A stretch of DNA of 64,000 nucleotides from Anaerolineales bacterium. Its GTDB lineage: Bacteria; Chloroflexota; Anaerolineae; Anaerolineales; Villigracilaceae. The position numbers were made by a program, and so were the translations under genes. The notes under the pieces are model-generated. The model was not told the origin of the DNA and searched no databases. It saw only the letters and a list, made by a program, of their open reading frames with translations. The DNA is taken from assembly GCA_014379595.1 (NCBI GenBank), contig JACMLM010000055.1:1-64000 (forward strand). Direction: 5' to 3'. Below are positions 1,637 to 43,094 of the stretch, piece after piece (position 1 is the first letter of the stretch; the number at the start of each line of letters is the position of its first letter).

Positions 1637-4234
1637 ATGCAAACTGAAACAGGCATTGAAACTCAACTCAAAGAAGCCACTCAACTTTCTGAAGCGGTTT
1701 GGTCTGTACTTGCAGAGCGCGTGGGCGGCGCATGGACGCTGCGTTCGGTTTATCGCCTTAACAAGTCCGCGCAAAATGATTTGATGACTCTGCTTGCAAA
1801 GCAGGTCATTGACACATGGTTGTGCGGTGCACTTAGTGGGGGATATGCACGCTCCAGCGCCATTCCTGATGGAAACAATCTCGGCGTAAAACGTTTTTTT
1901 GCGTTTCCTATTGCTGGAACTTCCCAAGCTATTTTAGTAGGGTCAGATGAACAATCTACAAACGCACAACGTATCTGGAAATTAACAGCCTCACTCTTAT
2001 CAGGAAATTCCCTTTCTCCCAATCAGCCGTTTCTTCCGGACCTGCAATCTGGTCTGGCTTCCGATCTGCCGCTTGCTATCGAAAAGATATTAAGTACCTT
2101 CGTCCAGTCAGTGACTTGTCAAGGGGCATGGCTGGCAATCCGTCGCGGAGAGTCGCTTGATATTCAGGCGGAGTGGAACGACACAAAAGCTAAAGGGCTA
2201 TCCCTGCTGATTGATACGAACCCTATTCTCCGTCGTGTGAATCGTTCATTATCCGATGTCATCATTACACGCGGCCAACCTAACTGGGATAATCTTCCAT
2301 ATGGCTCGCTCAAATCTGGGACAAAAGTTTGGATATGCCTGCCACTGATTATTGGCCAGCGCTTGATCGGCGTTGTAACACTTTGGCGACAAAAAGAATT
2401 TTCACGCGCCGAGTTGGGACAGTTGCGTGAATTGGCTTCACGCGTTTCACCTTCTGTAGAAGTGTTGGTCACATTTTCTGAAATGGCCGCGCACCTGCGC
2501 AGGCTTGGTTTGTTAAACGATTTTGTTCTCACGGTTTCATCTGCGCAAAATCTGGATCAGATCGCAAGGCGCATGTTTGGTTTGCTTTCGCGTGCCTTCA
2601 ATACTGAATTGATCACGCTTTTTCTGCGTTCCAGTGATGGGCGCGTATTGCGTGATTATCGTCTGTTTGATGGCAAGATGAATGTGATCATTGTTTCTGT
2701 TGATGGGCATTCGATACAACCTGCGCTTAAAGAAGGGCGTGTGCGCCGCGTAGCAGATACGATTAAAGAAGGTCTTGTGCCGATAAACAAAGGCGCGCGC
2801 TCCGAGTTGATCGTCCCACTCAAATATCGCGGACAAGTCATTGGTGTGCTTATTATTGAAAGCTTGCGCGCCGAAGCTTTTGGTCAATATGATGAACATC
2901 TGATGGTGGTGATTGCCAGTCATTTGGCGGGATTGATCGAATATACACGTCTGCGTGAAGAAGCCGAAGGCAGAGCGCGTAGTTTGGGCTTGATTCATGA
3001 AGTGGTGCAGCAAGTTATTGGTTTGAACGATAAAGGAGAAGTTGCAACCATCACTGCTGAACTTGTAGCACAATATTTTAAATATGAACTGGCTGCTATT
3101 TTACTTTTTGATGATGATCGCAAATTTTCGATTCAAGGCATTGGTGGCAGTCATGCGGAAACAGTCAGGCGGGCATTAGCAGGTGAGGACTTTGTAGTAA
3201 CAGATGGTGTCACTGGGCGTGTCTCCCAAACTGGTGAAAGCCTTTTGATCAACGATACCAGAACAGATAAAATCTATCGGCCCCTCAAAGGTTGGGAAGC
3301 ACGCTCTGAAATTTGTGTGGCAATAAAAGATGGCGAAAATATTCTCGGTATTATTGATGTGGAAAGCAGGGAACAAAACGCTTTCTCGCATAACGACCTC
3401 ATCGCCATGGAGTCCCTGGCTGGTATTCTTGCCGCTGTGGTTTCAAGTGCGAATCAATACCAAAAATTACAAGAGACGATTCGTCAATTGCGTACAACAG
3501 AGATCGAATTGAATGATCGTATGGAAGCTCAGCGCTCTGCAGAAAACCGTTTACTACAAGCTGCCAAGCTGGCTGCAGTTGGTGAAATGGCCGCAGGTAT
3601 TGCGCACGAGTTAAACAATCCGCTTACATCAGTGACAGGTTTCTCAGAACTTGTTTTGGATGAACTACCTGCGGACTCTCCGCATCGAAACGAATTAGAA
3701 ATGGTCTTGCGTGAAGCACGCCGTGCCAGTGATGTTGTACGCCGGCTGCTTAATTTTTCACGCCAGGGTGAACGTGTCCGTGCCAGTGCTGACTTGAACG
3801 AAGTGGTGAATGACGTGATCGCACTTACAAGGCATCTTATCCACACCAACAGTGTTAACTTGTTCATCGAACTCGATACTACGCTGCCTTGGATTTTGAT
3901 TGATCACAATCAAATGAAACAAGTTCTTCTAAATCTTATTCACAATGCTTTGCAGGCCATGCCTCATGGCGGCGAGTTGACGGTCAGTACTAGTATTGCA
4001 GAGCGCGATGAACGTAAGTGGGTAGTCATGGCAGTAAAAGACAGCGGTATTGGTATTAAGCCAGATGAACAAAATAGAATCTTCGAACCATTCTTTACTA
4101 CAAAAGGAGATAGCGGCGGCACAGGTCTTGGTCTCTCAGTGACCTATGGAATTGTTACTGATCATGCAGGGATCATAGAAGTTACAAGCGAACCGAATCT
4201 AGGTTCCACTTTTGCAGTCTGGCTCCCGATCTAA
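1637..4234 (+). CDS. soluble multi-GAF sensor histidine kinase
   Basis: Encodes 865 residues with no transmembrane segment. It begins with a degenerate GAF-like region (about 1-130), followed by three GAF domains (about 150-265, 290-430 and 445-600), a short coiled coil, HisKA with phospho-acceptor His657 in an AHELNNPL motif, and a HATPase_c domain with N box (NLIHNALQAM), G1 (DSGIGI), F box (FEPFFTTK) and G2 (GGTGLGL). It should autophosphorylate in response to ligands bound by the GAF domains; none is identifiable from sequence. The next two genes follow by a 1-nt gap and a 4-nt overlap, so the kinase is expected to phosphorylate one or both of their receivers. Initiation appears nearly leaderless. 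Confidence 0.93.
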   Translation: MQTETGIETQLKEATQLSEAVWSVLAERVGGAWTLRSVYRLNKSAQNDLMTLLAKQVIDTWLCGALSGGYARSSAIPDGNNLGVKRFFAFPIAGTSQAILVGSDEQSTNAQRIWKLTASLLSGNSLSPNQPFLPDLQSGLASDLPLAIEKILSTFVQSVTCQGAWLAIRRGESLDIQAEWNDTKAKGLSLLIDTNPILRRVNRSLSDVIITRGQPNWDNLPYGSLKSGTKVWICLPLIIGQRLIGVVTLWRQKEFSRAELGQLRELASRVSPSVEVLVTFSEMAAHLRRLGLLNDFVLTVSSAQNLDQIARRMFGLLSRAFNTELITLFLRSSDGRVLRDYRLFDGKMNVIIVSVDGHSIQPALKEGRVRRVADTIKEGLVPINKGARSELIVPLKYRGQVIGVLIIESLRAEAFGQYDEHLMVVIASHLAGLIEYTRLREEAEGRARSLGLIHEVVQQVIGLNDKGEVATITAELVAQYFKYELAAILLFDDDRKFSIQGIGGSHAETVRRALAGEDFVVTDGVTGRVSQTGESLLINDTRTDKIYRPLKGWEARSEICVAIKDGENILGIIDVESREQNAFSHNDLIAMESLAGILAAVVSSANQYQKLQETIRQLRTTEIELNDRMEAQRSAENRLLQAAKLAAVGEMAAGIAHELNNPLTSVTGFSELVLDELPADSPHRNELEMVLREARRASDVVRRLLNFSRQGERVRASADLNEVVNDVIALTRHLIHTNSVNLFIELDTTLPWILIDHNQMKQVLLNLIHNALQAMPHGGELTVSTSIAERDERKWVVMAVKDSGIGIKPDEQNRIFEPFFTTKGDSGGTGLGLSVTYGIVTDHAGIIEVTSEPNLGSTFAVWLPI

Positions 4235-4235
4235 T

Positions 4236-5816
4236 ATGGAAACACCTTTTGTATTTATCGTTGATGATGAACCCGGCATTGCGCTGTTGTGCAAACGTCT
4301 GCTTACGCGCGCGGGTTATAAGACTGAATCAAAAACTGAACCGCGTAAAGCGATTGAGTTTCTTAAGGAAAATAAGATCGATCTTTTGCTGGTTGATATT
4401 CGTATGCCAGAAGTGGATGGATTTGAAGTTATTCAACATGCCCAGCGCCTTCAACCTGATGCCGCCATTTTGATCATGACGGGCCACGGTACAGTTGAAA
4501 CAGCCATTCGCGCCCTCAGGCAGGGTGTTGATGGTCTGTTACTTAAACCTTTTGATCAAGGGAGCGAGTTAATTGATGCAGTCAAACTTGCACTTGCAGA
4601 TAGTCAGCAAAAGCGTGACGCCGCGCGTACACAGGCATTACGTCCACTTTTTTCTGTAACAGAATCTTTGCTTTCTGAAACACGCCGCGAGCCTTTGCTT
4701 GATCTAATCGTCAAGGCCATTTGCGAGCATATGCATTGTTCACATGCAGCTTGTTATCAACGAAATCCTGAAACATTGGATTTTATTTTATTAAGTTCAC
4801 ATGGTCTAAATCTTTCACATGAACATCAGGATTTGATCTCTCATGTGGATGCATCTGCTACGCCCCTACTGATCAATGCCAATGGGCCAGGCGACTCTAA
4901 ACTAAAATCGCTTCTTACCGACCTGAAACTGGGTGCAGCGATTCTTGTGCCGATCCTTCACCCTAACTTGCGTATGGTGTTATATGCAGCTCGCGCTGTG
5001 AACGAACCTCCATTTCGCGAATCAGACCTTGAAATGTTCCAGATTCTTGCGCGTCAGTCAGCGGCAGCATTGGAGAACGCTCGTTTGTATGCTGAGCAAT
5101 TGGATTATGTTCGTAAGGTGGAAGAATCTCAGAAAGCCTTGCTTCAAGCTGAAAAGATGGCAGCGGCTGGGCGGTTAAGCGCATCCATTGCGCATGAAGT
5201 TAATAACCCATTACAGGCTGTGCAAAATTGTCTTCATCTCGCAGGCCGCGAAGATCTACCAGCAGAAAAGCGAAAGGAATATTTTGATCTCGCACGTACA
5301 GAACTTGAAAGATTAACTCTTACGGTCCGCCGCATGTTGGATTTTTACAGACCGGGCACATCGGCACTTGAAGAGGTGGATCTGGCCGAGATGCTACAAT
5401 ATATTCTGAACTTAATGTCGAAGCAGCTTTCAGAAGCAAATGTAAATATCGCAGTTGATTTTCTTGATACCATTCCAACCATTATGGCCGTCGGCAGCCA
5501 GATACAACAAGTTTTCATTAACATGATTCTAAATGCAGCTGATGCAATGCCTGATGGCGGCAGATTGAACGTTACAGCAGGAACTTATAAAGATGGCGTT
5601 GAGATTCTGTTTCAAGATCATGGCACTGGAATACCGAAAGAAAAACAGTCTAATATTTTTGAGCCATTCTTCAGTACAAAAGAAGGTGGTACTGGACTAG
5701 GACTGACAGTGAGTTACAATATAGTTACCGCGCACGGAGGTACACTGGAATTACTTCCGGAACGCGGCCCCGGCGCTTGTTTTCGTATATTCTTGCCTCT
5801 AGGAGTGGAACAATGA
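4236..5816 (+). CDS. REC-GAF-histidine kinase
   Basis: Encodes 526 residues. The ATG at 4236 is taken because it follows the previous stop codon by one base; an upstream in-frame alternative lies inside the neighbour. Domains: an N-terminal receiver (1-125; acidic pocket Asp10/Asp11, phospho-acceptor Asp54 in VDIRMP, Lys in LKPFD), GAF (about 145-285), HisKA with His320 in AHEVNNPLQA, and HATPase_c with all ATP-binding boxes (NMILNAADAM, DHGTGI, FEPFFSTK, GGTGLGL). A receiver placed before a kinase core usually makes the kinase responsive to another kinase. Here the likely donor is the kinase encoded immediately upstream. This gives a possible kinase-to-kinase relay ending at the OmpR-type regulator whose gene overlaps the end of this one. 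Confidence 0.92.
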   Translation: METPFVFIVDDEPGIALLCKRLLTRAGYKTESKTEPRKAIEFLKENKIDLLLVDIRMPEVDGFEVIQHAQRLQPDAAILIMTGHGTVETAIRALRQGVDGLLLKPFDQGSELIDAVKLALADSQQKRDAARTQALRPLFSVTESLLSETRREPLLDLIVKAICEHMHCSHAACYQRNPETLDFILLSSHGLNLSHEHQDLISHVDASATPLLINANGPGDSKLKSLLTDLKLGAAILVPILHPNLRMVLYAARAVNEPPFRESDLEMFQILARQSAAALENARLYAEQLDYVRKVEESQKALLQAEKMAAAGRLSASIAHEVNNPLQAVQNCLHLAGREDLPAEKRKEYFDLARTELERLTLTVRRMLDFYRPGTSALEEVDLAEMLQYILNLMSKQLSEANVNIAVDFLDTIPTIMAVGSQIQQVFINMILNAADAMPDGGRLNVTAGTYKDGVEILFQDHGTGIPKEKQSNIFEPFFSTKEGGTGLGLTVSYNIVTAHGGTLELLPERGPGACFRIFLPLGVEQ

Positions 5817-6541
5817 AGTCAAATGTTCTTGTGGTGGATGATGAACCCGTTGCGCGTCAATCGCTGACGGATATTCTGAAACTTGAAGGATACATCGTAA
5901 CCTCTGCTCCGAATGGGCAGGCGGCTGTTGAATATGTCCGTACTCATCCAATTGATTTGATGATCGTAGATCTAAGAATGCCTGGCATGGATGGACTTGA
6001 AGTGGTGCAGGTTGTGAATCAGGTTTCTCCTGAAACCGAGGTGATATTGCTGACTGCATTTGGTTCCACTGAAACAGCCATTCAAGCATTGCGCTTACGC
6101 ATTCATGATTATTTGCTAAAGCCAGCTTCTCCTGCGCAGATCCTTGCGAGCGTAAAGAAGGGCTTGTCACGCCGTTCATCGAAAACGCGTGTTAGTGTTA
6201 CCTCTGCTGACATGGATGATGCGATAGAATTGGTTACCTTGAAAGATGGTACAACGGTTGATCTTTCGCGCCGTCAGATAAAGCATAAGAGCAAGGTTGA
6301 ACATCTCACTCCTGCGGAGGGCAGGTTGTTAAGAATTTTGATGGAGAATGAGGGCAAGGTTTTCTCACATCGTGAGTTGGTCTTGCTTGTGCAAGGGTAT
6401 GATACATCTCAACGGGAAGCGCCGGAGATATTACGTCCACTCGTGAGTCGCTTGCGACATAAATTGGAACAATTCCCATCTCTATCTGAAAAAGTGGTCA
6501 GTGTGCGTGGCACTGGTTATTTGTACGAAGGGAATAAATAA
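5813..6541 (+). CDS. OmpR/PhoB-family response regulator
   Basis: Encodes 243 residues. The ATG overlaps the previous stop (ATGA) and is preceded by AGGAGTGG, so the in-frame ATG at 5777 is rejected. The N-terminal receiver (1-120) has Asp9/Asp10, phospho-acceptor Asp53 (VDLRMPGMDG), Thr in LLTAFG and the conserved Lys in LKPAS. The C-terminus (about 150-243) is a winged-helix Trans_reg_C domain with the typical LTPAEGRLLRIL and VRGTGYLYE elements. It is a DNA-binding transcription regulator and the presumed output of the two kinases in front. An unusual helical linker of about 30 residues containing LKDGTTVDLSRRQ resembles the start of the beta-platform of the effector domain. No target site could be assigned. 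Confidence 0.93.
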   Translation: MKSNVLVVDDEPVARQSLTDILKLEGYIVTSAPNGQAAVEYVRTHPIDLMIVDLRMPGMDGLEVVQVVNQVSPETEVILLTAFGSTETAIQALRLRIHDYLLKPASPAQILASVKKGLSRRSSKTRVSVTSADMDDAIELVTLKDGTTVDLSRRQIKHKSKVEHLTPAEGRLLRILMENEGKVFSHRELVLLVQGYDTSQREAPEILRPLVSRLRHKLEQFPSLSEKVVSVRGTGYLYEGNK

Positions 6542-6547
6542 CAATTA

Positions 6548-6580
6548 TAAAAAAGACCGTCATCATGACGGTCTTTTTTA
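6548..6580. terminator. bidirectional terminator between convergent genes
   Basis: A perfect palindrome with 16-bp arms (6548-6563 and 6565-6580), GACCGTCAT core and A/T runs on both sides. It ends both the OmpR cassette (+) and the 36-kb sensory operon (-). The last codon of the EamA gene overlaps its right edge. Confidence 0.9.
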
Positions 6581-7525
6581 TTCATAAGGCCCAAACATAT
6601 CCTTCGGCAAACCCGGCGCACGGATCCAGGAGAGCCACCCGGTTTTCCCACTATGCATCGGCGCTGACGGACTCTCGTACATAACAAGAATCAAGCTGAG
6701 GCCGAGTCCGAACGCGCCAAGCCACTGAAGGGGAGAAAAACTCTCGCCCAGTAAAATGTTGCTAAAGATGATAGCGATCAATAATTCAGCAAGTCCAAGT
6801 AAGGCGGTTTGCATTCCGCCGATCTTTTTTACACCAAGAAAAAGTGCAATGCGTGAAAAAACTGTTACAAAGGTTAAACCTATCACTGGCAGCCAGGGTA
6901 TTTCGCCCGAGGGCCAAACCCTGTCAAATAGTAAATAGGCCGGTACAACAACTGCACTCATGGCAAGAAGTGTATAGAGTGCAACCGTGGGTGCCGGCAC
7001 TTCATAAAGTACGCGTTGATTAATAGGCAGGTGCATTGCATATAATACAGCGGCACCGATCATCATAAGAATTCCGATTGGGTCTGTGGAACGGTCAGGA
7101 ACGCTGGTAAGCAATACCACAGCTATTGTGGCGAGCCCGATACGAAAGAATGTAAGGCGGCTTGGAGGTTGATGATCGAGAACCAGCCAAAGTGCAACGA
7201 AGAATGGATAAAGTGAATATAGTAATTGACCAACGCTGGCATCTAACCTGGATAATGCGAGGTAATAAAGAAGGGAACCCAATCCATTGATTGAGCCTGC
7301 GAGGATACATCCAACTAGTCCCACTGGGAAAATATAAAGGTATTGGCGATAGAAAAGCACAATGACAATTAATAATATGGTGGCTGCGAAACTGGTACGC
7401 AATGCTACAACTGCAAATGGTGTGAAGCCTTGTGTGATGGCGAGCTTGCCAAACACAGGAGCCATCCCAAGAAATATTGCTGAACTAAAAGCAGCCCATA
7501 TTCCAGCTGTTTGTTTTTTTTGCAA
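6578..7525 (-). CDS. EamA/DMT-family transporter
   Basis: Encodes 315 residues with ten predicted transmembrane helices arranged as two five-helix EamA halves (about 8-140 and 155-285). This is the usual drug/metabolite transporter architecture and length. DMT proteins typically export amino acids or other small metabolites. The start codon is TTG at 7525, preceded at a suitable distance by AAAGG. The gene is the last of the long minus-strand run, 37 nt after the threonine synthase-REC gene, so export of threonine or a related amino acid is an attractive guess. That is inference from position only. The C-terminal 30 residues are hydrophilic and rich in Pro and Gly. Confidence 0.85.
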   Translation of the reverse strand: MQKKQTAGIWAAFSSAIFLGMAPVFGKLAITQGFTPFAVVALRTSFAATILLIVIVLFYRQYLYIFPVGLVGCILAGSINGLGSLLYYLALSRLDASVGQLLYSLYPFFVALWLVLDHQPPSRLTFFRIGLATIAVVLLTSVPDRSTDPIGILMMIGAAVLYAMHLPINQRVLYEVPAPTVALYTLLAMSAVVVPAYLLFDRVWPSGEIPWLPVIGLTFVTVFSRIALFLGVKKIGGMQTALLGLAELLIAIIFSNILLGESFSPLQWLGAFGLGLSLILVMYESPSAPMHSGKTGWLSWIRAPGLPKDMFGPYE

Positions 7526-7562: not shown

Positions 7563-9221
7563 TTACTTTATTAATGCCTTAACTTCTTCAAGGAATTCGT
7601 CGTTAAGAAAATCACCTTTTTGCATAAGAGCTTGGATTTGCCCGCCAAGTCTGCTCTTTTCATCTTGTGTAAGTTCTTTGGCAGTTGCAACGATGACAGG
7701 GATGGTTGCCGTTTCCGGGTTTGCACGCAAAGCCTCAATGACAGTGAAGCCATCCATTTCTGGCATCATCAGGTCTAGAATAACCAGGTCTGGTAGTTCG
7801 CGTTGGATCAATTCAAGACCCTCGCGGCCATTTACTGCTTCAAGGATGGTGAAATTACCTTGCGATTGTAAAATACGCCGGATAAGGCGGCGGGCTTCGG
7901 TAGTATCTTCTACAATTGCGATCTTGGGGAAACGTTCTGGTGCAACTTGTGAAAGCGCGGAAAGCAAACCTTCCTGCGGAGTTGCATCCACACTTGGGAA
8001 TTTCACATCACGTGACCAGTTATCTCCAAGGATACTTGGATCAGCCGGCATGGTGTGCCCGGTGCAATTCACAACGACAGTATCGCTGGGTTTGATAATT
8101 CCAGCGCGGATTAATTTGAACAACCCGGCAAATGCCACGCCAGCGGCAGGTTCGGCAGAGATGCCTTCCATTTTGGCAAGCACATGCATGGCTCGAAAAG
8201 CATCTTCATCTGGTACGCTTTCAAAGACTCCATTTGTGCTATTTACATACTCACGCAGAAATTCATAAGCACGTCCAGGGTCACCGGTTGCCAATGTTTC
8301 AATACGTGTCATAGGGGAGGTGACAGGTTCTGCTTTTTCCAAACCCTTTTTCCAACTGTTCACCATCGGCGCGCAGCCTTCTGCTTGAATGGGAGCAAAG
8401 GCAGGGATGCGGTCTGTCCACCCCATTTGTTTCATTTCGCGAAACCCCTTGTAAACCCCAATCGGTCCCATGCCACCGCTAATGGCTTGCACATACCAAT
8501 CCGGTGTGCGCCAGGGAGCATCAACCTCAGCATCAGGGTCTTGAATTGCTGTCATTTGTTCTGAGATTTCAAAAGCAATTGTTTTCATCGCTTCAATGGA
8601 TGTGATCGTACGTGCGCCCATATCCTGATATAAGTTGCGCTGTCGTGCAAATTCAGAAGCGACTTGTTTGCACTGATCATAGGAACCGGTGATCTTGATC
8701 ACCTGGCTTCCATACAATGCGATCTCACGCATTTTTACAGCAGGCACAAGGCTGGTAACAAATGCCCAAAGTTTCATCCCAGCTCGTGAAGCATAAGCTG
8801 AATAGGATATCGCAACATTTCCTGTGGATGCTGCCACCATTTCTGTGATGCCAGCTTCTTTCAACGCAGCAATCGTAACTGATGCCTGTCTATCCTTGAA
8901 TGAAGAGGTCGGCCCCTGACGCTCATCCTTAATATATATGTTTGGGCATCCCAGCATCATGCCTAAATTTACTGCACGAATCAGTGGAGTTCCACCCTCG
9001 CCGAGAGATAAGCTTACGTTTGGATTACGAACAGGTAACAGCTCCCGATACCGCCAAAGGCCGGAGCGTCTTTTTGCCAATTTGGAGCGTAACGTCTTTC
9101 CGATTATTTCATAATCGTACTCTGCTTCACGCCATTGACTGTTGCACTTCGGGCATGTAGTAGATGTTGGATAGTATGGTGCATTGTGGCCGCAATCAAG
9201 GCATTTGATGATAAAAGACAC
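7563..9221 (-). CDS. threonine synthase fused to a C-terminal response-regulator receiver domain
   Basis: Encodes 552 residues from a GTG start with AGGAG 7 nt upstream. Residues 1-30 hold a Cys4 zinc ribbon (CLDC ... CPKC) as in type-I threonine synthases. Residues about 60-425 are a fold-type II PLP enzyme with the PLP lysine Lys109 in SSFKDRQ and a serine/glycine-rich phosphate loop. The expected reaction is O-phosphohomoserine to threonine plus phosphate. Residues 431-552 form a complete receiver domain: VEDTTEARR acidic start, phospho-acceptor Asp483 in LDLMMPEMDG, TAK switch region, and a terminal MQKGDF lysine. That last receiver segment closely resembles the second receiver of the neighbouring hybrid kinase (LLSKGSF), suggesting duplication from it and phosphorylation by it. 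Fusion of a biosynthetic enzyme to REC is unusual. The frame is continuous across the junction. Confidence 0.9.
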   Translation of the reverse strand: MSFIIKCLDCGHNAPYYPTSTTCPKCNSQWREAEYDYEIIGKTLRSKLAKRRSGLWRYRELLPVRNPNVSLSLGEGGTPLIRAVNLGMMLGCPNIYIKDERQGPTSSFKDRQASVTIAALKEAGITEMVAASTGNVAISYSAYASRAGMKLWAFVTSLVPAVKMREIALYGSQVIKITGSYDQCKQVASEFARQRNLYQDMGARTITSIEAMKTIAFEISEQMTAIQDPDAEVDAPWRTPDWYVQAISGGMGPIGVYKGFREMKQMGWTDRIPAFAPIQAEGCAPMVNSWKKGLEKAEPVTSPMTRIETLATGDPGRAYEFLREYVNSTNGVFESVPDEDAFRAMHVLAKMEGISAEPAAGVAFAGLFKLIRAGIIKPSDTVVVNCTGHTMPADPSILGDNWSRDVKFPSVDATPQEGLLSALSQVAPERFPKIAIVEDTTEARRLIRRILQSQGNFTILEAVNGREGLELIQRELPDLVILDLMMPEMDGFTVIEALRANPETATIPVIVATAKELTQDEKSRLGGQIQALMQKGDFLNDEFLEEVKALIK

Positions 9222-9234
9222 TTAAAAGCTCCTA

Positions 9235-12200
9235 TTATTTTTTCATTTGTATTCGTTCCAATGCGCGCTGGATCGATGTTAATAACTCTGTTTCGCTGAA
9301 TGATCCCTTGGACAAAAGACGCTGACCAAACTCGTTTAGTTGGACCTTTTGTTCCGCTGTTACTTCGAGTCCGCTGATCACGATTACGGGAATATCTCGT
9401 AATTTTTTATCTGACTGCATATTTTCCAGAATTTGGAAACCGTTCATTTCAGGCATGAACAGATCAATAATTATAGCGTGAGGGGGGTTTCCGGAGGATA
9501 TGATATTCCAACCACTTTTACCGCCTTCAGCAAGAATGGCTTTATATCTTCCATCCTGGTTTAATATTTTTCCGATCAGGCGCAGGTCATCTGGGTTATC
9601 GTCAATGACAAGCACTTCGCGAATCGAGCCGTCTGCATTTAAGCGGTCAAGAGCATTGACGATATCATCCTCTAAAATAGGTTTAACCAGATAATCGGAT
9701 GCGCCAAGGTTGAAACCTTTCTCCAAGTCTTCGATGATACTACAAACTATGACTGGTGTATCGCGTGTTTCCGGGTCAGCTTTTAAATTATCCAAAACTT
9801 GCCAACCGTCAATACCGGGCATCATAATATCCAAAGTGACAGCAAAAGGTTTAAGCTGTTTTACACGTTCCACTGCACGTGATGGGTCAGTTAATGGAGT
9901 GACTTGATACCCTTGCGGATGCAAATAGCGTTCATACAATCCGATCACTTGCGGGTCGTCATCAATTGCAAGGATGATCTTGTTGCCATTGGCTGCAATA
10001 CCTTCGTTTTCCTTATGGAAAAGCGGAAGAGTAAAGTGGAATTTACTTCCCTTACCGACTTCACTTTCAACCCAAATTCGCCCACCATGCATGTTGATAA
10101 GTTCCTGACAGATCGAGAGTCCAAGTCCTGTGCCGCCTGTTTTGCGTGTGGGGGAGTCGTCCACTTGTGAGAAGGCTTGAAATAGTTTTGTTTGATCTTC
10201 TCTTGATATACCAGGGCCGGTATCTGTAACAGTTACCATTACTTCGGTGCGCCCTGTGGTTCCAAGCGCCGTGCGGACTTCAACAAGGATATCACCCTCA
10301 TCTGTGAATTTAGATGCATTGGAGAGCAGGTTGATCATTACCTGGCGAATACGAATCGCATCTGCTCTAACCGTTGGCAGGTTCGGCTCAATGATGCGTT
10401 TCAACTCAACCGGTCTGTCTTTAACCAATCCGCTCATGGTAGACATAACACTGCTGGTCACATCTGCCATATTAACTTCGTCGAATGCCAATTCCATCTT
10501 TCCAGCTTCGATCTTGGCAAGGTCAAGAACATCATTGATAAGACCCAACAAGTGCTGGCCTGAATTGTAAATGGCTGTAAGATCTTGCTGTTGTAATTCG
10601 GTTACCGGCCCGTCTATTCCTTTTAAGATCACCCGCGAAAAACCAATGATGGAATTAAGGGGAGTGCGTAGTTCATGACTCATATTTGCCAGAAATTGAC
10701 TCTTCAACCTATCGATCTCGCGCATTTCCATCACTGCCTGTTGAGACAGCTCAAAGGAACGAGCATTATCAATGGCTACAGCTACCTGGTCCGCAAGGGT
10801 TTGCAATACAGCAATATTATCTTCTGTAAAGGCACCCTCATTTACGGCATGGATATCGAGCGCACCGATAACTCGGTTCCCAATTCGTAGAGGGATGGCA
10901 GCTTCCGCTTTTGTATCAGGAAGTAGATCACTCGGTATAAAAAGAGGATCGGCCGCCACATTGTTTACAACTACAGGTTGACCTTCAGATGCAACCTTGC
11001 CTACAACCGATTTTGCATTCACTTGTTGAGTATGCTTTTGTTTCTTCAGTTCAGCGCCAGCGGCGCCCGTGCCTTCTCGTAAAATGGCATTGAAGCCTGT
11101 TTCTTCTACAATATAAATACTGGCGTAATAGAAATTAAATCTGTCATTGATAAGGTTTACCGTTCGCGCAAAGATTGCATTCAAATCCAATGTGGATGTG
11201 ACCAGTTTGCCGATCTCTGCGGATACTGCCAAATACTCATTCCTACGGCGAATTGCATCCTCTGCGATTTTGCGGTCTGTAATATCCCGTGCAACCCAAA
11301 AGACGTTTTCATTATCCAACTTTGTCAAGTTGGCGAGAAACCAATAGATTTCATCTCCAATAGGAAGTTTATATTCGATTTGAACCGATTCATTGGTGGT
11401 TAATGTCTTGGTGACGGCTTCTTCAAATTGATCTGCAGTTTCTGCATCTACTACTACATCTCTCATGAGTTGGCCTACCAATTCATCAGGCGGGCGAAGC
11501 AGCAGTGATGGATTTGTGGGAGCAATGCGAACGTAGCGGGCGTCTTTATCCACAACAAGCACAACGTCTTCCATGGAAGAAAACAGGACACGCAAGTCGG
11601 CTTCTGATTTTGAGAGAGCTTCTTGATTTTTAGCACGATCCAGTGCGCTGAAAGCAATTTGCCCAAACAAGCGCAGTGTGACAATATCTTCTTCTGTCCA
11701 GTTTTTTCGGTGATTCACCGAATCAAGACCAACAAAACCAACGGAGCGATTCTGTAAAGCAATTGGAGCGCATAAAATAGATTGTATGCCTTCTCTCAGA
11801 TATTCGTCTCTTTCTGCTGAAGCAGTATCGGGTATATCAAGGATATTTGATACTGCAAAAGGTTCCATGCGGGTTAGAGATTGCATCATATAAGGCAATG
11901 CACTTAAGGGGACGTTATGGAAATCATTGATGTAAGAAGCAATACCTGGCTTTCTCCATTCATGAGTATTGTCCATGCTATCGTGCGTACCGGCCGTAGC
12001 TTGGTTATTATCATTAAAAAGAAATATATAGGCACGGTCGATGGATAAAAATGTTCCCAGTTTTCCAAGGCTGCGATTGACCACTTCATCAATAAATTGC
12101 GGATCGTTGACATTCAAGAAGTCTGTCGCAATGTCATTGATTAGATTTTCAGCTTCGGCGCGGTAGCGGGTACTTTCAAGGGCCTGCTGTGTTTCCTGGA

Positions 12201-12606
12201 ACAGGCGCGCATTCTCAAGTGCTAATGATAGTTGGTCAATGACCTGCCTGATCAGCAGCTGTTCATCCTGTGTCCAATCCCGTTGTTGAGTTTCATCCAA
12301 CACGCGTAAAGTGGACCAATCCCGGCTGCCAGTTTGGAAATTTACAGCATAACTTGATTCTGTCTGATTTCCATCTTGTGGATTTACAGATATTACTTCA
12401 CTTGGAAGAATTGAGGCAGGTTTCTCTTTAAGCAGCCGAGGAGTGATAGCTGCTTCGGATTTTTTTAGAGCAGGCTTCGGGTCAGTCTGAGGCGCCGCTT
12501 CTTTCTCAACCTTTGAACTGCGCTTCGTCTTCGAGGCGTTTTCTTCAGGCTGAATATCCTTGAAGAGCTTGTCAAGCCGCTTGTCTATTTTCGGTTTCTT
12601 TGGCAT
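9235..12606 (-). CDS. soluble multi-domain hybrid histidine kinase (GAF-PAS-GAF-HisKA-HATPase-REC-REC)
   Basis: Encodes about 1123 residues. The ATG at 12606 is chosen; a TTG at 12612 is also possible, both behind AGGAG, and the gene overlaps parA. A Lys/Glu/Pro-rich tail (1-70) leads into an isolated C-terminal half of a GAF domain (about 75-130) resembling that of the sensors. Next come GAF (150-310), PAS (330-450), GAF (460-620), HisKA with His644 (NMSHELRTPLN), HATPase_c (NLLSNASKF, DTGPGI, GGTGLGLSI) and two tandem receivers (about 875-990 with LDIMMPGIDG; 1000-1120 with IDLFMPEMNG). No membrane segment is present. It is the only kinase in a 19-gene run containing twelve sensors without output domains. 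The simplest inference is that it is their shared kinase, passing phosphate to its own receivers, the two stand-alone receivers and the threonine synthase receiver. Confidence 0.92.
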   Translation of the reverse strand: MPKKPKIDKRLDKLFKDIQPEENASKTKRSSKVEKEAAPQTDPKPALKKSEAAITPRLLKEKPASILPSEVISVNPQDGNQTESSYAVNFQTGSRDWSTLRVLDETQQRDWTQDEQLLIRQVIDQLSLALENARLFQETQQALESTRYRAEAENLINDIATDFLNVNDPQFIDEVVNRSLGKLGTFLSIDRAYIFLFNDNNQATAGTHDSMDNTHEWRKPGIASYINDFHNVPLSALPYMMQSLTRMEPFAVSNILDIPDTASAERDEYLREGIQSILCAPIALQNRSVGFVGLDSVNHRKNWTEEDIVTLRLFGQIAFSALDRAKNQEALSKSEADLRVLFSSMEDVVLVVDKDARYVRIAPTNPSLLLRPPDELVGQLMRDVVVDAETADQFEEAVTKTLTTNESVQIEYKLPIGDEIYWFLANLTKLDNENVFWVARDITDRKIAEDAIRRRNEYLAVSAEIGKLVTSTLDLNAIFARTVNLINDRFNFYYASIYIVEETGFNAILREGTGAAGAELKKQKHTQQVNAKSVVGKVASEGQPVVVNNVAADPLFIPSDLLPDTKAEAAIPLRIGNRVIGALDIHAVNEGAFTEDNIAVLQTLADQVAVAIDNARSFELSQQAVMEMREIDRLKSQFLANMSHELRTPLNSIIGFSRVILKGIDGPVTELQQQDLTAIYNSGQHLLGLINDVLDLAKIEAGKMELAFDEVNMADVTSSVMSTMSGLVKDRPVELKRIIEPNLPTVRADAIRIRQVMINLLSNASKFTDEGDILVEVRTALGTTGRTEVMVTVTDTGPGISREDQTKLFQAFSQVDDSPTRKTGGTGLGLSICQELINMHGGRIWVESEVGKGSKFHFTLPLFHKENEGIAANGNKIILAIDDDPQVIGLYERYLHPQGYQVTPLTDPSRAVERVKQLKPFAVTLDIMMPGIDGWQVLDNLKADPETRDTPVIVCSIIEDLEKGFNLGASDYLVKPILEDDIVNALDRLNADGSIREVLVIDDNPDDLRLIGKILNQDGRYKAILAEGGKSGWNIISSGNPPHAIIIDLFMPEMNGFQILENMQSDKKLRDIPVIVISGLEVTAEQKVQLNEFGQRLLSKGSFSETELLTSIQRALERIQMKK

Positions 12607-13360
12607 ATTCAATTAGCTCCTGGGCAAGGACGCGATATTGTGTGGAACCGCGTGCGCCAGATTTGTAACGTGTGATGGGCATGCCCGCAATTGGGCTTTC
12701 GCGCAATTTTGTGTCTATTTCAATAACCGTGTTGAAAACACCTTCGCCAAATGTGGCGCGAAGCTGCTCATGAATATTACGGTGCGTACGATTTCTTCGA
12801 TCCAGCATGGTTACAAGAATTCGATATGCAAGATTAGGGTTATCTGCCTCTCGAATATTACGAATAAGAGTCATCATGTTGCGCAGGGCGTATGCGGAAA
12901 AATATTCCGCTTGTGTTGGGATGAGCAGAAGATCTGCTGCAGCGAGTGCATTTTTTGTAATTGCGCCAAGTGCCGGGGGACAATCAAGGATGATGTAATC
13001 ATACGATGTATTGGTTGAGTTAGCAATTGCACGCTGGAGTATGGTGGTGTAATTCGTGCGCACAGGCAGAAATTGCTCGGATGATTCTATACGCGAACTG
13101 GATGGAACAAGATCAAGATTTTCAACATCGGTTTTGCGACATGCACTTATTAAAGGCGCGCCATCAAGCATGATGTCACTGGATGTGCGTTCTGCTTCGC
13201 CCGGTTCAAAACCAAGGGAAAGTGTTAAGTTAGCTTGAGCGTCCAAATCGATCAATAAGACCCGATATCCATGATCTACAAGGGCAGCTCCAAGAGAGAT
13301 CGTGGTGGTTGTTTTTGCCACGCCGCCTTTTTCGTTTGATATAGCAATTGTTTTTAACAT
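12572..13360 (-). CDS. ParA/Soj-family ATPase
   Basis: Encodes 262 residues with the deviant Walker A KGGVAKTT (signature Lys11, Lys16), the switch I motif LIDLDAQANLT, and Walker B with the CPP motif (YIILDCPPALGAI). These are hallmarks of the MinD/ParA group, which forms ATP-dependent dimers that bind non-specific DNA and position cargo. No parB, parS-like cluster or chromosome-origin gene is nearby. The gene sits between a membrane sensor (18-nt gap) and the hybrid kinase (about 35-nt overlap). ParA-like proteins that place chemoreceptor arrays (ParC, PpfA) offer a precedent for positioning of sensory complexes. That role here is inference; orphan chromosome-partition function is the alternative. 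Confidence 0.9.
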   Translation of the reverse strand: MLKTIAISNEKGGVAKTTTTISLGAALVDHGYRVLLIDLDAQANLTLSLGFEPGEAERTSSDIMLDGAPLISACRKTDVENLDLVPSSSRIESSEQFLPVRTNYTTILQRAIANSTNTSYDYIILDCPPALGAITKNALAAADLLLIPTQAEYFSAYALRNMMTLIRNIREADNPNLAYRILVTMLDRRNRTHRNIHEQLRATFGEGVFNTVIEIDTKLRESPIAGMPITRYKSGARGSTQYRVLAQELIEYAKETENRQAA

Positions 13361-21578: not shown

Positions 21579-22550
21579 TTAAGGCAAATAGGATGGGTCG
21601 AGCAATTCAAGCGGATCGATCTGCTGGGCAACGGCGCCAATTGAAATTAAATATTCGGATGTAATTTTTGCAATTGCGTAGACCGAATTTTCATTCTCTA
21701 TGTTAAAGAACGCTTTATTATCATCCAAAGTTAGGATTTTTAGATTGTCATCAGGTTGCACTTTTTCGATGTCTATGCCAAGATAATTGGCTACAATTGA
21801 TCTGGTTTCCTGCGGATTTTGCAGGCGATAATCAACTGCTTCAAACCAGGCTTGCAGGAAGGCTTTAATATCATCGGGTCTTTCTTCAACAAGCGATTCG
21901 CGAAATACGATCATGTCCGGGAAAAGCCTTAATGAGCGATCTGTTGGGTAAATCACTTTGTTGCCATCTAAAATTGCATCAGATAAAAACGGCTCCCATG
22001 TAAAAACTGCTTGAACCCGGTTGTTCCTTAGCGCAACTGATGCATCTTCAGGATTCATTGCTACAACATTAACATCGTCAGCCTCCATGTTTGCGCTTCG
22101 TAACATTTCAGAAACCATTAATTCATATTGTGTGCCAATTAGAACGCCTATTGTTTTGCCCTTTAAGTCTTCTACCGTATTAATCTCTGGCCTTGCCATA
22201 ATTGACATAAAACTACCGTCATCAGATATCGCCAATATTTTCATATTAGCACTGCGATTGATATTGATGATGTCTCCTACTGCAATTAGTGCCCCGTCAA
22301 TTTGTCCGGAAGCCAGGTCTGGATATGTATCGGAGAATACTTCGTAATAGACAGGTTCTACTACCACTCCATACTTTTCAAAAAAACCTTTTTCCTGGGC
22401 AATGATCAGTGTGTAATCTCCCCACCATTGTGTGAATTCCACGCGGATAGGTTCCGCTGCGACTTCCTCAGGTTGAAATGCAGTACAAGCCACCAGAATA
22501 TTCATGATGACAAAAAGCATAATAGTCTTTAAAAAAAGGTTTTTCTTCAT
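21579..22550 (-). CDS. orphan ABC-type solute-binding lipoprotein (NMT1/SsuA-like)
   Basis: Encodes 323 residues. Residues 1-22 are a lipoprotein signal ending in the lipobox ILVAC (Cys22). The rest is a type-2 periplasmic-binding fold of the NMT1/THI5-SsuA group: an EFTQWWGDYTLI start, a GFFEKYGV segment, LASGQIDGALIAVGD, KGKTIGVLIGT and VFTWEPF. Family members bind sulfonates, nitrate, taurine or pyrimidine precursors. No permease or ATPase gene accompanies it, and it is embedded between two sensors with 14- and 24-nt gaps. It is therefore more likely a ligand-presenting subunit for sensing than part of a transporter. The ligand is not predictable from sequence. Confidence 0.9.
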   Translation of the reverse strand: MKKNLFLKTIMLFVIMNILVACTAFQPEEVAAEPIRVEFTQWWGDYTLIIAQEKGFFEKYGVVVEPVYYEVFSDTYPDLASGQIDGALIAVGDIININRSANMKILAISDDGSFMSIMARPEINTVEDLKGKTIGVLIGTQYELMVSEMLRSANMEADDVNVVAMNPEDASVALRNNRVQAVFTWEPFLSDAILDGNKVIYPTDRSLRLFPDMIVFRESLVEERPDDIKAFLQAWFEAVDYRLQNPQETRSIVANYLGIDIEKVQPDDNLKILTLDDNKAFFNIENENSVYAIAKITSEYLISIGAVAQQIDPLELLDPSYLP

Positions 22551-42252: not shown

Positions 42253-42705
42253 TTAACTAAACTCCCAGACAGGCTCTCCACTTAAGATGCGGCGAATTTG
42301 GTCAGGGAAGCGGTCTGGGTCAAGAGGCTTGCCTAGAAATCCGTCAAAGCCTGAATCTCGAGCCTTCTTCATTTGTTCTGTGCTGGCCTCTGCAGTGACA
42401 GCAATGATCGGCACGGTTTTAAATCTTTCAGAGGCACGGATCTTCTTTAATGCACCATATCCGTCTTCATACGGAAGTCGTATATCCATAAGAATAAGGT
42501 CAAGCCGTGGAAGTGTATCTGCATACTCCACAACCTCATAGCCTGAAGTTTTCCATTCACAATGAATTCCCAAATACCCCAACATGCGCGCAATTAAAAC
42601 AAAGTTGGAGACATTGTCTTCTACAACCAGTACCGCAGCATCTTTTGGTATATTTGGCTTCTTAATAGGTTGTGTGTCAGAAACAGTAGGTGTCGGGTCA
42701 GACAT
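42253..42705 (-). CDS. single-domain response regulator (CheY-like) with N-terminal extension
   Basis: Encodes 150 residues. A Pro/Lys-rich tail of 21 residues precedes one receiver domain: acidic pair Glu29/Asp30, phospho-acceptor Asp74 (LMDIRLP), Thr in AVTAEAS and Lys in GKPLD. There is no effector domain. Its start overlaps the preceding receiver stop (TAATG). The receiver is of the Spo0F/DivK type found as a phosphorelay intermediate or diffusible output. It is probably phosphorylated by the hybrid kinase at the far end of the operon. Confidence 0.92.
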   Translation of the reverse strand: MSDPTPTVSDTQPIKKPNIPKDAAVLVVEDNVSNFVLIARMLGYLGIHCEWKTSGYEVVEYADTLPRLDLILMDIRLPYEDGYGALKKIRASERFKTVPIIAVTAEASTEQMKKARDSGFDGFLGKPLDPDRFPDQIRRILSGEPVWEFS

Positions 42706-43094
42706 TAGTTAGTGCTCCTTATAATGAATCGCTCGATCTGCTGGGCGAGTGTATCAATGTCGATTGGTTTTTGTATGTAGCCATCGCATCCCGCTTCCAG
42801 TGATTTTTCGCGATCGCCGCGCATTACATTTGCAGTAACCGCAACAATAGGAATTTTTGTAAATTTTTGAATCGCTTTGATCTTTGCTGTAAGGGTATAA
42901 CCATCCATGTCCGGCATGTTAATATCCATCAGGACCAGATCAATATGATTTCCCTCAAGTTTTTCGATCGCCTGTTCAGCATTAACAGCGTCTACAACAG
43001 AATAACCATCCGCGCCTAATACCCTGCGAATGAGATTTCTATTATCTGGATTATCTTCCACGTACAGTATAGTACCTTTTACTTCTTGCGTCAT
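42705..43094 (-). CDS. single-domain response regulator (CheY/DivK-like)
   Basis: Encodes 129 residues, a minimal receiver: Glu13/Asp14, phospho-acceptor Asp57 (LMDINMPDMDG), Thr in AVTANVM and Lys in QKPID. It is the first gene of the 36.5-kb minus-strand run. GGAG lies 12 nt upstream of the ATG. With no effector domain it must act by protein contact or as a phosphate shuttle. Its closest relative in the window is the next receiver, suggesting tandem duplication followed by divergence. Confidence 0.93.
   Translation of the reverse strand: MTQEVKGTILYVEDNPDNRNLIRRVLGADGYSVVDAVNAEQAIEKLEGNHIDLVLMDINMPDMDGYTLTAKIKAIQKFTKIPIVAVTANVMRGDREKSLEAGCDGYIQKPIDIDTLAQQIERFIIRSTN

Follow-up and report, generated by a model that had tools for sequence, protein, structure and literature searches.

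A PLP enzyme of the threonine-synthase superfamily carrying a response-regulator receiver in Chloroflexota

Here we describe a protein in which a PLP enzyme of the threonine-synthase superfamily continues into a phospho-receiver. It is encoded on the minus strand (7563-9221) of the window, the 64,000-nucleotide stretch of an Anaerolineales bacterium contig (JACMLM010000055.1) analysed here. Judged from its sequence, the protein is a real enzyme-response regulator whose output domain is the PLP enzyme, and the cell probably controls the chemistry of this enzyme directly by signalling, not by gene switching. In the reading that we prefer, to which we assign a probability of roughly 0.6, phosphorylation controls the activity of the PLP enzyme, which would use a substrate other than O-phosphohomoserine and form the output of a many-sensor pathway.

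A PLP enzyme and a receiver in one reading frame

The fusion gene is a single open reading frame of 552 codons without a break. It starts with GTG, carries an AGGAG ribosome-binding site 7 nt upstream of this codon, and begins 13 nt past the end of a hybrid histidine kinase gene. The open reading frame, Pfam, the alignment of relatives and a predicted structure delimit a zinc ribbon (Cys7, Cys10, Cys23 and Cys26), a PLP domain (about residues 55-392; window 8046-9059), a linker (about 393-431) and a receiver (432-552; window 7566-7928), with the four zinc-ribbon-type cysteines lying N-terminal to the PLP domain. Pfam matched PALP (PF00291) to residues 72-388 (1.5e-63; 215.4 bits against a cut-off of 35) and Response_reg (PF00072) to residues 434-523 (3e-19). 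Both the PF00291 domain and the Schiff-base lysine of the PALP superfamily are present, the latter being Lys109 of the SFKDR motif (8895-8897, minus strand), whose role is taken from the family. The receiver holds the acidic pair Glu438 and Asp439 (Asp439 at 7905-7907, minus strand), the predicted phospho-acceptor Asp483 (7773-7775, minus strand), Thr513 and Lys535, which together make up the acidic pair, Asp, Thr/Ser and Lys of a response-regulator receiver. An earlier note on this DNA had proposed a complete PLP enzyme running in frame into a complete receiver, and the reading frame, the domain matches and the residues all agree with that proposal.

An AlphaFold model of the fused protein, made with 68 sequences, had a pLDDT of 82.1, with at least 85 in 31 of the first 39 ten-residue blocks and a poorly predicted stretch at the end of the receiver (514-544). 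Its best match in the PDB was the Arabidopsis threonine synthase (Z 43.9, rmsd 2.2, 374 residues aligned), followed by the cysteate synthase CapA2 (9k3c; Z 42.2, rmsd 2.5, 381 residues aligned), and both matches extend from residue 1 on. Sequence and fold appear to give the superfamily of the enzyme, not its substrate.

The fusion is conserved in Chloroflexota

After identical cores had been collapsed, 86 fused proteins left 67, the window's own among them. Lys109, the four zinc cysteines, Asp439 and Asp483 are kept in all 67 aligned proteins, as are the catalytic-core motifs SFKDR, STGN and SGGxGPxG; Thr/Ser513 and Lys535 are kept in 66 of 66, the sequence of L018 ending at a contig edge. This conservation rules out a degenerate receiver, and the alignment gives no sign of a degenerate PLP enzyme. 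The earlier note had considered that orthologues might lack the key receiver residues, which is not so, or that a sequencing error had joined two genes. An assembly error or a chance joining is ruled out by the 67 distinct fused proteins and by a pattern scan of genome contigs that found 15 fusions in named records with both domains covered (L018 being the one cut by a contig end), as well as by 55 matches in Chloroflexota and a second copy in the same genome. The named records come from Anaerolineales, Anaerolinea, Anaerolineaceae, Anaerolineae, Thermoflexales or Chloroflexi/Chloroflexota.

The 55 matches come from a search of 400 Chloroflexota genomes, that of the window included, with a profile built on the PLP part only. 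They lie above 500 bits (527.8 to 757.3 bits, the window's own included), occur in 41 genomes, and all sit in open frames of at least 549 residues; the next match, at 274.7 bits, marks the level where ordinary ThrC-like proteins begin. In Chloroflexota, members of this PLP clade are fused wherever their end was visible. All 24 genomes listed from the window's genus and family carry a match, while the non-matching genomes listed (20 of 227) are related to the window's genome at the level of the order onward. Two copies are present in 14 of the 41 genomes; the window's genome is one of these, its second fused copy being 48 percent identical. One fused protein, of 812 residues by the ORF call (L141:8172-10610), bears a second C-terminal receiver.

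Between the window gene and 13 relatives, dN was 0.035-0.112 for the PALP part and 0.038-0.155 for the receiver; synonymous differences amounted to 0.59-0.88 per site and were mostly saturated, so that dN/dS could be obtained for a minority of the 13 pairs only. Selection thus constrains the PLP part and the receiver about equally.

A tree of PLP domains was built from 68 fused rows, with the window's protein present twice, four relatives from the phylum of a cyanobacterium and eight other ThrC-like proteins. In it the fused proteins form one clade with a support of 0.974, which suggests that the fusion arose once in this sample. This clade groups with the four cyanobacterial-phylum relatives (support 0.766, long branch of 1.24), apart from the other ThrC-like proteins. 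The four were the only matches at E 1e-95 among 146 genomes of that phylum: L166, L167 and L168 are complete and unfused (398-420 residues), and L169 is cut by a contig end. The three complete sisters share the PLP clade of the fused proteins at 43-47 percent identity, and all four resemble them in carrying the D.G...MKT motif and in missing three residues of the Thermus threonine synthase discussed below; unlike the fused proteins, the three complete sisters have no receiver. Two unfused sisters score narrowly above the TIGR00260 cut-off of 167.1 (170.5 and 175.4). Near the unfused sisters, nothing resembled the window's kinases at E 1e-5. Six further phyla gave no match at E 1e-95 (0 of 199, 199, 199, 140, 249 and 150 genomes), a weak result as these sets contained no known positive, and in the 13 non-Chloroflexota among 19 genomes searched the top score was 250.5 bits, as expected of an ordinary ThrC.

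A GH3-like gene (L168:7093-8808; weak OlsH/GH3 match) adjoins the unfused sister in L168, a related GH3-like gene, recognised by eye, lies about 8 kb from that in L167 (L167:1-282), and an L-threonine 3-dehydrogenase gene about 6 kb from that in L166 (L166:16687-17835).

Substrate of the PLP enzyme

The earlier note had named the protein a threonine synthase, and this label is doubtful. On the two NCBIfam models for threonine synthase, the window protein scores 150.9 against TIGR00260 (cut-off 167.1) and 256.4 against PRK08197 (cut-off 303), below both. In alignments to five solved threonine synthases, Thermus Asn154, Ser155 and Arg160, which we take to be the residues that bind the substrate phosphate, are present in all five enzymes and align with residues 201, 202 and 208 of the fused protein. 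None of the 67 fused proteins keeps any of the three: position 201 is R, M, L, Q, K or A, position 202 is G, and position 208 is S, A, C, G or P, with an Arg one position further on, at 209, in 24 of the 67. The genome has other ThrC-like proteins. The canonical ThrC, on contig C55, scores 302.9 against TIGR00260 (cut-off 167.1), has all three residues (in NSINPFR), and is encoded divergently from the adjoining homoserine kinase gene thrB (TIGR00191, 244.1 against 168.25); the other, on contig C27, scores 181.2 against TIGR00260 and has Thr at the Arg position. The name threonine synthase thus appears to lack support, even though the activity may still be there. Calling the fused proteins threonine synthases by similarity is likely an over-annotation, as they lack residues that the solved enzymes share and the genome encodes a canonical ThrC elsewhere.

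We consider it unlikely, yet worth serious weight, that the protein is a true threonine synthase that uses O-phosphohomoserine and has its activity set by phosphorylation. Its closest solved relatives by sequence and its best match by structure are threonine synthases, and Lys163, which aligns with Thermus Lys116, is kept in all 67 fused proteins. Among six fused proteins scanned (those of the window, L002, L021, L119, L137 and L138), two narrowly pass TIGR00260 (170.6 and 168.9 against 167.1), which leaves room for threonine-synthase activity, but none reaches the PRK08197 cut-off, and the three phosphate positions, changed in every fused protein, are kept in the five solved enzymes and in the ThrC beside thrB. 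A ThrC-like gene also lies within two genes downstream of the fused gene in five loci of the second operon type described below (L125, L128, L130, L131 and L132), so the fused protein may serve threonine synthesis. The two of these ThrC-like proteins that were scored, in L125 and L128, pass PRK08197 (577.5 and 565.8 against 303), and the PRK08197-type proteins keep the Arg and are likewise without the Asn-Ser pair. The set of three residues would accordingly be a feature of TIGR00260-type enzymes, so that the residue test is not absolute; for this reason we weighed our preferred reading lower, and that of a true threonine synthase higher.

Compared with ThrC (TIGR00260 and PRK08197; Arabidopsis 2c2b, Bacillus 6nmx and Thermus 1v7c), the fused protein shares the fold and the PLP lysine motif, at 25-33 percent identity in structural alignments, and its N-terminal zinc ribbon is as in PRK08197-type ThrC; it differs by the absence of the three residues, by the window protein's score under both cut-offs and by the added receiver. 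Arabidopsis ThrC is controlled by a bound metabolite and is not known to be controlled by phosphorylation. CapA2 is matched in structure to a similar extent, but the identity is 23 percent, it ranks sixth in the alignments to solved proteins, and cysteate synthase is an unlikely identity because the score against NCBIfam TIGR03844 is 117.6, far below the cut-off of 324.9.

Under the preferred reading of an enzyme with a different substrate, the protein would most likely act on an amino acid other than O-phosphohomoserine, in a lyase, replacement or dehydratase-type reaction. A lyase-type reaction is plausible in this superfamily, as a study of Microcystis reports a ThrC that deaminates threonine too (PMC12172450).

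The receiver and the neighbouring hybrid kinase

The hybrid histidine kinase encoded just upstream of the fusion (9235-12612, minus strand; Pfam and tree) contains GAF and PAS domains, a HisKA/HATPase core with His646 (window 10675-10677), a first receiver (880-988) and a second receiver (about 999-1121). In a tree of 160 receivers from the loci, the fused receivers group nearest to the second receivers of the hybrid kinases, with a median distance to the nearest of 1.43 against at least 2.45 for other groups. The second receiver of L147 is nested among the fused ones. The clade of fused and second receivers has a support of 0.674, so the transfer may have gone in either direction. By plain score within the genome, the second receiver of the neighbouring kinase ranks second, at 61.3 bits against 64.7 for a receiver on contig C41. 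That the fused receiver is most like the second receiver of the kinase next door, as had been suggested earlier, is therefore borne out by the tree, though it comes second by score.

In 51 of 55 loci, one of the two genes just upstream encodes a histidine kinase on the same strand; L130 was dropped from the 56 loci for this count since the ORF filter preferred an overlapping frame there. The loci lacking a kinase among the two upstream genes are L023, L122, L127 and L129, of which L127 and L129 have called ORFs that overlap by about 300 bases, making the calls there doubtful.

Operon organization and proposed pathway

We compared the neighbourhoods of 56 loci, each covering 8-20 kb and in part non-independent (L013 and L159 do not differ in gene set, and some of L138-L145 are closely related). 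Two types of operon were seen. The type I operon, which is that of the window, contains kinase-less GAF sensors, a ParA gene, a kinase with usually two receivers, the fusion and an EamA gene, often with a convergent receiver-wHTH regulator and kinases. The type II operon, which is that of the paralogue, often contains kinase-less GAF sensors, followed by a receiver-less kinase, the fusion and usually then a single receiver. The single receivers of type II loci are nearest to the first receiver of the kinases, at a node of weak support (0.516).

In the window, 19 minus-strand genes run from 43094 down to 6578, over 36.5 kb, with gaps of -59 to +46 nt, and the fusion gene is next to last. The run begins with two single receivers, of 129 aa (42705-43094) and 150 aa (42253-42705), and continues with twelve kinase-less GAF sensors of various architectures (dCache-HAMP-GAF, MASE11-GAF, HAMP with four GAF, and others) and one NMT1-like binding protein (together 13379-42243, by Pfam). 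These are followed by a ParA-type ATPase (12572-13360; ORF call and Pfam), which has homologues in 23 of the 56 loci and may position the signalling complex, by the hybrid kinase and the fusion, and by an EamA-family transporter (6578-7525; Pfam and homologues), a possible exporter. EamA homologues occur downstream of the fusion in 30 of the 56 loci, so the EamA gene to which the earlier note had pointed recurs. Convergent to the run, on the plus strand, are a receiver-wHTH regulator (5777-6541), with related regulators in 20 of the 56 loci, a receiver-GAF-histidine kinase (4212-5816) and a GAF histidine kinase (1637-4234). In addition, homologues of a GNAT acetyltransferase (L089:16624-17523; Pfam on this one) are found in 8 of the 56 loci.

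We hypothesize that one kinase collects the input of the many sensors, membrane-bound and soluble, and would phosphorylate Asp483, either via its own receivers or directly. Phosphorylation would then alter the packing of the receiver on the PLP enzyme and turn its activity up or down, and EamA may export the product. The outcome would be control of metabolism by phosphorylation, or the making of a diffusible amino-acid-like product.

It is also conceivable, albeit improbable in our view, that the PLP part has no metabolic output: as a sensor or scaffold it would bind PLP or an amino acid and adjust the receiver or the kinase. PLP-fold domains act as sensors in MocR regulators, the setting is a run of signalling genes, and a separate ThrC-like gene lies nearby in the five type II loci named above; yet one would expect some of the SFKDR, STGN and SGGxGPxG motifs to have relaxed if the domain served for binding alone, and all of them are conserved throughout the fused proteins. 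That the receiver only tethers the enzyme to the kinase-sensor complex or directs its localisation, phosphorylation leaving the activity alone, is very improbable. In its favour, the genes for ParA and the kinase overlap in the window and in L009, among others; against it, the type II stretches examined showed no ParA, and the fused proteins there keep every phosphorylation residue.

Relation to known systems

Two-component regulators act mostly on genes. In CheB and other regulators with an enzyme output, the receiver sets the activity of the enzyme directly, CheB acting on signalling proteins; by comparison, the proposed target of the fused enzyme is a small molecule. Direct control by a receiver of a small-molecule enzyme on the same chain is, to our knowledge, rarely documented.

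A 2018 census treats the joining of receivers to metabolic enzymes as well established; its section on enzyme outputs names thioredoxin reductase, pyruvate phosphate dikinase, a BcsA-like glycosyltransferase and a KaiC-family NTPase, and in that section no PLP enzyme (PMC5847659). As in the regulators of that section, a complete receiver and an enzyme share one chain and the lineage range is narrow; what sets the present fusion apart is its PLP enzyme, which carries an N-terminal zinc ribbon, and its link to a kinase gene and an extensive sensor run. In the literature on receiver-enzyme fusions that we searched, we found no report of a PLP enzyme or a threonine synthase fused to a receiver, although surveys may contain an earlier mention. 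The fusion is stable across its clade, occurs in two operon types and lies on one chain, which makes a single protein sufficient for testing whether phosphorylation controls a metabolic enzyme.

Kinase-less sensors and a possible split GAF domain

Pfam shows no kinase domain in the twelve GAF sensors of the window. Eight other type I genomes, followed for up to 20 kb upstream, have between 4 and 8 such sensors ahead of the kinase at each locus, giving 63 sensors of at least 400 residues in nine loci, including the window. In 62 of the 63, 47-80 residues follow the final GAF match and form a conserved tail similar to the beginning of a further GAF domain. All 63 tails were compared with the GAF profile; 62 gave any match, 34 of which align from the start of the profile. 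The median score was 0.55 bits, while shuffled tails, 49 of which matched, had a median of -1.0. Near the N-terminus of the kinase, a C-terminal GAF piece was found by profile in four of nine kinases (those of the window, L171, L174 and L176) and by eye in L170, L172, L173 and L177, L175 being the one kinase where it was not seen.

Sensor tails that look like the start of a GAF domain and a kinase N-terminus that looks like its end give a weak hint of split-GAF docking. In the full form of this idea, which we regard as doubtful, the pathway would have a metabolite as its main output: a dozen kinase-less sensors would dock on a single hybrid kinase by completing a split GAF domain, and this kinase would switch a PLP enzyme of a new kind, whose product, an amino-acid-like messenger, is exported. 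We also considered a basic motif at the kinase N-terminus (MxKK...RLxxLF) as a ParA-docking peptide and rejected it, similar motifs being present in some type II kinases without ParA. Within the sensor run of the window, the NMT1/THI5-like binding protein (21579-22550, minus strand) is possibly a ligand-binding partner of one of the sensors.
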